From Centroberyx gerrardi (Eukaryota; Chordata; Actinopteri; Beryciformes; Berycidae), in contig NC_135998.1 of assembly GCF_048128805.1 (NCBI RefSeq), positions 17,672,156-17,736,155 on the forward strand: a stretch of 64,000 bases of DNA, read 5' to 3'. The notes beneath the pieces were generated by a model. It was not told the origin of the DNA. It saw nothing but the letters and a program-made list of their open reading frames with translations, and did not search any database. Of the stretch, positions 27,001-30,000 are shown piece after piece. A program made the translations under genes and the position numbers. How positions within the stretch are numbered: the first letter of the stretch is position 1; each line of letters starts with the position of its first letter.

Positions 27001-30000
27001 TATTCTTAACATCAGCTGCATTTCCTGGAATCCACACCAGAAGGGGGGCCTACTGCACCAATTTAACAGCTGACACAAGAAAGTAGTTCAAGCAACTGCA
27101 TTTAAGGGCTTACATTTGTAAGGTTGAAAAAGTTTACTTATGCGTGAGTATGAATGTGAGTGTGAGTTTGTTTGTACATCAGTCTGTGTTCGTCTGTCGT
27201 ATGTGATGGACCGGCTACCTGTCTGTGGTGTTTCCATACCTTCCGCCCAGTGCATGCTGGGATGAGTGGGGTGCCATCTTCCTTCACCCTCACGTTAAAA
27301 TGCTCCTTGGGCATACCTGAGGCTTTGTCAGACTACCCGCAGGCATCACCAGGGGAATACATTTTGGTGTGAAGAAAACTTTTCCGTTGTGCCCCTCATG
27401 AAATGTAAACAAGCAATTACTTTCCAGATGTCCCTAGTTTATCTGTAACCCAAGTGGTGGCCATGGGTTGGCACTGTTCCCTTTTTTTGACCACAAGGAA
27501 AAGTGGGCTGCAGCTTAACTTTTGACAACAATGCCCATCAGCAACCAATCACATGTCAAAATTGCTATTCAACCTAGAGATGGAACTCCCATGATGACAC
27601 GCAACATAAGAATTTACATCTAGGTTCCTTGTCACTTTGCTCACATAAATGTATGCAATACGGTGATGTCTGGCACTATATGTAGGTGAATGCTTATAAT
27701 CATAAGACAACAGATATACCCGCATTTTATAACAAGTGTGCTAGTGCTTTTTAGATCTTCGAGGGGCAGTGTTTCCCATACATAGGCTCTGTAGCTCACC
27801 ACCACAATATCGGCACAGCCGCCACAAAATATAAAGTTGGTCAATGTAGAGAAATTAATCTAAATCGATCTCTAGCGCTGCGCCTAAGAGGTGCACATGA
27901 CGTTATGTTCTCTGTCACACCAATCTGCCGAGGCTGGGGTGCTCACTCAGCTGTTGCTTGTAAACACCCCGCACACACATGCCTTTTCCCCTCATCTGCT
28001 TGTGTGAAACAGACATCACCTGCCATTCTGACCTCAAGAAATGCTGTGTCCAGTGTGACAGTCTGACAAAAACCTGATAAAGACTTGACAACAGACGGCA
28101 ATTGTTAACTTATTTTTCTCCAATACTCAACTTGGGATGCTACTGTCCATGAAGTGACATTATCCCAGCTGCTAGTGGAATCTATATATCCTACTACTAT
28201 AATTGGCGGTGCGTCTGTCTGTCTGTCTGGAGTTGCAAGGCACACCATTGCTCCGATCGCCTCCAAAATTTGCCAAAACACTGTTCAGGGGTCTGGCATA
28301 AGTTTGGTCGCACCAAAAAAAAAAAGAATGTTGCAGATTTCTAACCTAGGCACTGACTATACTGTACCGTAGTTCTATTTCGTGGAGGTCCGCCCCCCCA
28401 TAGGTTTACCCCGCTGCCGAAGCAGCATCAATGACCGTCCGCCCCATAGGAGAGCTCTGCTCCTATTGGTTTACATGACTGAAGACCAAATGTATGAATG
28501 TCAGCGTGAGCCAGGACAAAGAACAAAGTCCTAAAATGCCCAAAAAGAAGTGATCATCACTCTCGGATCACGAGGCCAAGCGCACGAAGCTAGCGAAACT
28601 CCAGACGAGTCAGGTAAGAATTCTGAACCCCAACCGGGACAAGATTTAAATGTAAAAACATAATGTTTTCACCTTGCTAACGTAGCCTAACATTTACACA
28701 CAAGTTAGCTAGCAACGTTGTGTGTGAGTGGATGGAGGGAGGGAGAGGGAGCTCTAGAATTGCCACAGTTATCCAAGTAACATTAGAGCGATCAAAGGAA
28801 CCATAACTGATTTAATGAGCCATTCGCAGTTTCACTGTACCGGCCGTGTGTACTTAGACTTGCATGGCTTAATCTTTGAGACAAGCATATGCTACTGGCA
28901 GGATCAACCAGGTAGCCTCTTCCCTTTGGCCGCCGGGACGGAGCACTCCGACACCCGCACGGACCACGCATCTGGGCCCCGCCGTGGACCCGGGCCAATG
29001 GCTACCGGGGGCGGCAGAGCAAGGCGTCCAGCACCGGGGAGGGTGAGGGACAACGCGACGGGCTCCGTGGTAGGACTACTGGGGCAGACGGGGCGTCTCG
29101 GTCTCGCTACTGGCAGGTCGGCGACGGAGGAACGTGGAGGACGCCCTCCACGCATTCCTTCCGCGCCATAGAGGCGAACCCACAAACCGGAGGAACCGTC
29201 CGCCCGAACACCGGCACTAGGCCGGAAGGATCAGGGGGAAGAGGTCAGGGGTGAGTTAGGGGGAAAGGGAAACCCCGAAGGGCGCTTTGTGCTAGTAGTC
29301 AATATTAGTGTAAGGCATTAATTTTACACCTTTTCATTTTCACGTTAGACTGAAAGGAGGTGGGATCCCTTATTTGGGATGAAAAATGATGTCATGATTG
29401 AGAGGACTATGTGCACCAATAAAATTAAATGCAACCACTAGGGAACAACATGACCAATTTCCCTTTCTATTGCTGTAACATCATTGGTACTGCAGCTACC
29501 AAGTTGCCTCCAAATGAGCCAAAAGACAGCAGACAATATGGTTGCGTGCCTAAATAGAGAGTTCCTCTTTCCTTTGTGCACTCCAACCTCCAAATCCCGC
29601 TCTGCTTTCCTATTTCCTGTGTCAGCCTTTTGCAGGGAATGGCAGGAAAACAAATGAGGGGCATCATTCCTTCATTAAATACATTTACACAGCACTTTCA
29701 TTTCCTGGGGCCAGTCAAAAACATTCCAGGCAGGCCAGCGGTCACATATTGGCACACCATGCTAGTTAAGTTCACACTACAGCAGATACAGAATGGGGGG
29801 GGGGAATCTTTGAAACCACAAGTGACACTACAACTAAATATTATGCATAAGAAGAAATTAGGGTGGCTAATAATGAATCCGTTATGCTTCCAGTGTGCTC
29901 AGATAGACCCATTTTTAGGCCTGCTAACCTATCGCATCTTGTAATCTGTGACTCCCATCGTCAACGGTGCAAGATGCTCAGTTAGATGGATCACACTTGG

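Follow-up and report, generated by a model that had tools for sequence, protein, structure and literature searches.

Helitrons are already well known to capture fragments of their hosts, as the accessible portions of two accounts set out (PMC4778049, PMC4021074). In the available text of the first, Helraiser has 5'-TC and CTAG-3' ends, an A|T target, a 3' palindrome of 19 bp, and a RepHel protein, and its captures arise by bypass of the 3' end, with new ends downstream (PMC4778049). The same partial text describes HelibatN3, a non-autonomous Helitron with a fragment of the NUBPL promoter (PMC4778049).

The element that we describe here is, like the Texim-carrying Helitrons, a fish Helitron with captured host sequence; in the part of that account available, the protein-coding Texim gene adjoins the Helitron region, whereas here noncoding rDNA replaces the interior (PMC4021074). 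As far as the excerpted description of HelibatN3 goes, our family resembles it in being a non-autonomous subfamily that was born of capture and amplified, with a first exon followed by a splice donor. However, the exon and donor came from the captured host gene in HelibatN3 and here appear to be the parent Helitron's own, and the cargo here is antisense rDNA. Our family counts about twenty loci, far fewer than in bats. With Helibat1/Helraiser of bats, on the same partial description, the family shares the 5'-TC and CTAG-3' ends, the A|T target, and a RepHel protein, which is found in two genomic copies (L056 and L058). Unlike Helraiser, the element in the window (the whole 64,000-nucleotide stretch that was analyzed) has no protein, resides in another host, and carries rDNA cargo. 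SINEs derived from 5S rRNA, reportedly described by Kapitonov and Jurka in 2003, are said to be retroposons with a 5S-derived promoter. Like them, our element is mobile DNA that consists in part of rRNA gene sequence; unlike them, it is a rolling-circle DNA element with 18S and 5' external transcribed spacer (ETS) sequence. Among the titles and abstract beginnings listed from an open-access library, we recognized no Helitron whose cargo is 18S or 5'ETS; a named entry may exist in subscription journals or in repeat databases. One candidate paper has Helitron in its reference list only (PMC3544641), and the available part of another contains no Helitron with rDNA cargo (PMC7599744).

The element in the first intron of abl1

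Positions 28189 to 29295 of the window (plus strand) are a non-autonomous Helitron of 1107 bp sited between A and T. Its 5' end, TCCTACTACTATAAT, begins at 28189 directly after A28188, and the opening that follows this A reads TCCTACTACTATAATTGGCGG; its 3' end is GTGCTAG, with CTAG at 29292 to 29295, and is followed by T29296. Without the element, the flanks would read ...CTATATA|TAGTCAAT.... The original prediction of a Helitron-like element with TC...CTAG ends at an A/T junction is what these bases give when read directly. An inverted-repeat scan of 28000 to 29500 listed none that are at least 12 nt long, terminal ones included.

The left part of the Helitron (28189 to 28749, plus strand) holds the TCC... 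5' end, a GTCTGTC run, the putative relic of the parent's first coding exon (28536 to 28613, plus strand), and the start of an intron; query positions 1 to 548 are common to L056. The exon is suggested by an open frame in the translations of the copies (MPKKKRPSLSD... in several of them) and by a putative GTAAG splice donor at 28614, right after it. In the window copy, the frame of this relic is stopped at codon 6, and several other copies have stops as well.

The next block (28750 to 28914, minus strand) is nucleotides 1 to 165 of 18S rRNA, antisense to the Helitron. In a focused scan, the Rfam model SSU_rRNA_eukarya placed its position 1 at base 28914 on the minus strand (E 2.5e-19); the fragment appears only in that scan, and at the gathering threshold no Rfam match was listed for the whole window. 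The block had been predicted to be exactly the first ~165 nt of 18S. Its identity and strand hold, but one base differs from the beginning of 18S as it stands in the rDNA array of this genome (164/165 identical). Contiguous with the 18S start are 311 nt of 5'ETS (28915 to 29225, minus strand), from the 18S-proximal end of that spacer; the promoter-proximal character suggested at first would be conjecture. This segment had been described as CpG rich, and from 28920 to 29219 its GC content is 0.65 to 0.77 and its CpG observed/expected ratio 0.81 to 1.33; each of the two measures is 0.42 over the window as a whole. A match of about 95% to the host rDNA arrays over query 839 to 1037 identifies it as 5'ETS. 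The window copy is without ~140 nt of ETS kept in other copies, the gap falling at 29025/29026 at a repeated AGGC, and the equivalent of the cargo in the host unit is 631 nt, of which 165 belong to 18S and 466 to the 5'ETS.

The rDNA reaches its right limit at about 29225, and 29226 to 29295 (plus strand) is already the Helitron 3' end, with a decayed hairpin at 29270 to 29288 before the CTAG; query 1032 to 1107 matches L056 at 89% and L058 at 90%. Among four copies folded, the 3' hairpin was better than shuffled sequence in one, the C7:23.2M copy, whose stem of 8 bp stands 8 nt before the end (z of -4.08); for the window, C4:32.9M, and C18 copies, shuffled sequence folded as well (z of 0.23, -0.19, and 0.35). 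The stem of 8 bp in this single well-folding copy compares with the 19-bp palindrome given for Helraiser in the available text.

The element lies in intron 1 of abl1, as had been proposed: exon 1b at ~39.1 kb (minus strand) matches positions 1 to 45 of an ABL1 chain (E 1.2e-14), and the next exon lies at ~8.1 kb (E 6.6e-30). Since abl1 is transcribed from the minus strand, the rDNA, though antisense to the Helitron, has the same sense as abl1, and the 18S piece here sits in sense within the abl1 pre-mRNA. After abl1, at 43.4 to 63.8 kb of the window, are frames in the open reading frame list that we take by eye to be exosc2-, prdm12-, and fubp3-like, in an order known from other vertebrates. 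The window also contains a CACG tetranucleotide repeat of 35 units (25920 to 26059). The window copy, an old insertion into this intron, is decayed (ETS deletion, weak hairpin, and stop in the relic exon) and is probably dead.

Copies and target sites across the genome

We searched the host's own genome (778.9 Mb, 278 contigs). With the whole element as the query, 40 of the 47 candidates were scored, which gave at least 74 matches, true rDNA arrays included; E was printed as 0 at seven places besides the window's own, and the match to other genomic places is beyond chance. With the left part (561 nt), all 19 candidates were scored, and at least 25 matches were grouped into 19 loci: C2:17.7M (window), C2:11.1M, C7:7.88M, C3:21.97M, C4:32.9M, C18:1.55M, C2:20.7M, C2:5.22M, C17:23.7M, C19:1.63M, C4:16.7M, C7:23.2M, C16:10.0M, C5:30.8M, C20:1.6M, C5:4.33M, C16:2.19M, C22:0.47M, and C5:32.6M. 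Thus, the left part is present at 19 or more loci, 15 of these 19 also with rDNA. At C16:2.19M and C19 the rDNA part is ETS only. The four loci without rDNA comprise two RepHel-bearing copies (C2:5.22M and C5:32.6M) and two truncated ones (C4:16.7M and C5:30.8M) with no rDNA match within the sequence compared. A further relic on C14 (L048) has rDNA and the 3' hairpin without the left part.

Both termini are present in 9 of the 15 rDNA loci (the window, L031, L032, L034, L035, L036, L037, L040, and L047). Elsewhere, L038 has a rearranged 5' end, L039 is without the left 255 nt, and L033 has a broken 3' end. Later insertions within the rDNA block were seen in L032 (C18; ~2.2 kb, between query 884 and 885) and in L033 (C2:20.7M; ~0.6 kb, after query 837). 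The copy on C22 (L042), 98.7% alike to the window over query 466 to 837, was considered as a special case and rejected; it belongs to this family and has been rearranged. In the Helitron part, copies diverge from their own consensus by 1.5 to 3.2% in 13 of 16 rows, a range given without L039, L040, and L042 because flanking or foreign sequence forced in or misalignment inflates their divergence. This divergence suggests a family age of some millions of years. In other collections, the Helitron 5' end had no matches in viral_contigs or genome_contigs, the 18S start had none in viral_contigs, and the whole element had none in phages.

The target site is constant. Among 25 regions, A precedes TCC at 15/15 other loci where the 5' end was seen, as A28188 does on the left side of the A|T target in the window, and T follows CTAG at 10/10 other loci where the 3' end was seen, at L056 and L058 likewise, as T29296 does on the right side. 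The consensus ends of the copies are A|TCC...CTAG|T. Extra TCCTA units stand before the start at 5 of the 15 other 5' ends (L034, L035, L040, L043, and L045), and the exact start is therefore ambiguous in these loci; in all five, the units are themselves preceded by A. The extra units look like 5'-end slippage or a shifted start.

Joined flanks of 12 copies (ten rDNA copies, L056, and L058) were then compared with all collected sequence for empty sites. The C18 copy has a paralogous empty site in a repeat of its own locus (L032, 929 to 1124), which spans ATGACAA|TTAATC gap-free at the joint (167/197 identical, reaching 15 nt past the joint in that piece). For the C17 copy, the paralogous empty site lies in our window, in a reverse transcriptase relic at 12126 to 12315 (minus strand; 135/199 identical, 68%), again gap-free at the joint; we take this relic to be LINE-like by eye, from a reverse transcriptase motif. 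A Pfam search with a 72-amino-acid frame from the joined C17 flanks found no family. A same-locus repeat also spans the C7:23.2M site (345/392 identical), but this empty site is weaker because of a 10-nt gap at the joint. The other 9 of the 12 joined flanks found no empty site in the sequence compared, only self-matches ending 7 to 12 nt past the joint. Insertion between A and T with no target site duplication fits the flanking bases and the C18 and C17 sites.

These results bear out the suspicion of a mobile unit rather than a single copy: the dispersed copies, at unrelated loci, have common ends and the rDNA block with the same junctions, and the paralogous empty sites of the C18 and C17 copies are gap-free at the joint. 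Collapsed or misjoined rDNA reads could conceivably mimic such a family, as rDNA assembles poorly and the 18S of the C20 copy gives way to N after 23 nt. Yet the copies are spread over many chromosomes and show distinct flanks, private indels, a divergence of a few percent, precise ends, and empty sites, and the junctions shared amid distinct flanks refute an assembly artifact, to which we assign next to no probability. We are dealing almost certainly with a non-autonomous Helitron subfamily with captured rDNA.

Capture of the rDNA

The joins between Helitron and rDNA are the same in every copy that can be read. In the alignment, the left join is identical in 13/13 rows reaching it (L047, L041, and L045 end short of it), and the right join is identical in 11/11 alignable rows (L040 and L042 are unreadable there); the right-hand pieces of L040 and L043 agree by BLAST. 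The 18S part of the copies' consensus is host 18S (165/165), from which single copies differ at 0 to 9 of 165 sites. Over the whole rDNA part, the consensus differs from host rDNA at 26 of 586 compared sites, several gaps relative to rDNA are common to all 13 rows, and ETS substitutions and gaps are fixed in the copies relative to host rDNA. In a FastTree tree, one branch (length 0.048, support 0.999) separated nine rDNA rows (eight places, as L022 and L053 are one place) from nine Helitron copies, with L032 entered as one piece and L033 with its insertion kept, and the internal branches among the Helitron copies were very short. Because a single branch splits the rDNA from the copies, the rDNA part has a common origin in one capture. 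That a Helitron had picked up a piece of rDNA, as first proposed, is upheld by this branch and by the common junctions.

A divergent rDNA sequence was seen at L052 (C3:36.56M) and at C3:35.56M, away from the other arrays (85% over query 562 to 837), and L052 groups with rDNA in the tree. It is possibly a minor or degenerate rDNA locus.

The window taken alone would be compatible with an rDNA block that had inserted by itself into one resident Helitron, by chance nesting or as a processed rRNA pseudogene. However, 15 loci carry the rDNA with the same junctions wherever readable, which rules out a single nested insertion, and the block contains unprocessed ETS beside the 18S. A retroposed pseudogene, with a target site duplication, processed rRNA, and an A tail, is likewise out, as the ETS is contiguous with the 18S and all of it lies inside the Helitron ends. 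The chance that the block alone was the insertion is therefore negligible.

L056 (C2:5218979-5224931) shares query 1 to 548 and 1032 to 1107 with the window element, and L058 (C5:32611226-32618018) shares query 1 to 85 and 1032 to 1107. Both are ~6 to 7 kb long and share both element ends. Frames of L056 match Helitron_like_N (PF14214, 5.2e-40) and PIF1 (3.9e-26), and a frame of L058 matches PIF1 (3.4e-52); of the seven L056 and L058 frames scanned with Pfam, three had no family. The Rep frame of L056 matches Helraiser in the PDB (7lcc, 1.9e-101), as does an L058 frame (1e-35). A protein search found 1,121 relatives among 6,740 candidates, of which the best two listed, at 64% and 68% identity, are labeled PF14214. 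The transposase frames of L056 and L058 are broken into pieces, and these copies are thus decayed; among the loci found there was no intact RepHel copy. Because both share the element's ends and hold broken transposase frames, we conclude that rDNA replaced a RepHel interior. Near the left part, L056 is internally duplicated and L058 has lost sequence, so the junction could be compared with the parent on the right side only. Nested within L058, frames at 5434 to 8463 (plus strand) resemble, by eye, reverse transcriptase and its neighbors, as though a retroelement had inserted there separately.

At the right junction, the parent (L056) reads ...GGGGCCAGAAGGATC, the rDNA reads ...GAGGCCGGCCGG, and the element reads ...TAGGCCGGAAGGATC. 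The parent Helitron, L058 included, and the rDNA have in common a 4-nt GGCC (29220 to 29223 in the window), after which the parent's own 3' end follows. In the route demonstrated for Helraiser, according to the available text (PMC4778049), a parent beside rDNA would have read through its CTAG and adopted a new terminator. That would leave the old 3' end on the upstream side of the rDNA, with the new one on the downstream side, whereas the element ends in the parent's last 76 nt, joined directly to rDNA at GGCC, and the parent interior is missing; read-through is hence very improbable. The GGCC match and the retained native 3' end favor template switching instead, and, since several kilobases of interior are gone while the old 3' end is kept, a switch during copying or repair within the element fits better. 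An identical product would also result if a truncated Helitron left end and a separate right end had flanked an rDNA stretch and been copied across as a composite, and truncated family members do exist. This would require two truncated Helitrons in the same orientation ~0.6 kb apart in one rDNA unit, and at the six rDNA places where the entire element was compared, the rDNA part alone matched. We regard a composite as unlikely and microhomology-guided template switching as the probable means of capture.

Spread and meaning of the family

In this reading, a Helraiser-like RepHel Helitron of the host lost several kilobases of interior and gained an antisense stretch equal to those 631 nt of the host rDNA unit, with its own left end, including the first exon, and its ~76-nt 3' end kept. 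The product, of ~1.2 to 1.3 kb, gave rise to most copies found. From the shared ends and the example of Helraiser, we infer that the RepHel protein may have mobilized this rDNA-bearing element in trans through circles, with rolling-circle copying that began at 5'-TC and stopped at CTAG, followed by insertion between A and T.

Because the rDNA form makes up 15 of the 19 left-part loci, the cargo itself might be proposed to have aided the spread of the family, an idea that we hold to be quite doubtful. If it were true, the 18S/ETS sequence may attract the element, or circles of it, toward open chromatin of the nucleolus, or the cargo may give homology to a huge array, and rDNA would be a selfish asset for the Helitron.

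The family is a natural record of Helitron capture. A single genome contains the host rDNA as donor, RepHel copies that resemble the parent, and the product, and for this reason the right junction can be read. This record favors internal replacement with a 4-nt match over read-through of the Helraiser type. As a result of the family, fragments of 18S and 5'ETS are dispersed over many chromosomes of the host species, where they can confound the use of rDNA probes, the counting of copies, and the mapping of reads.
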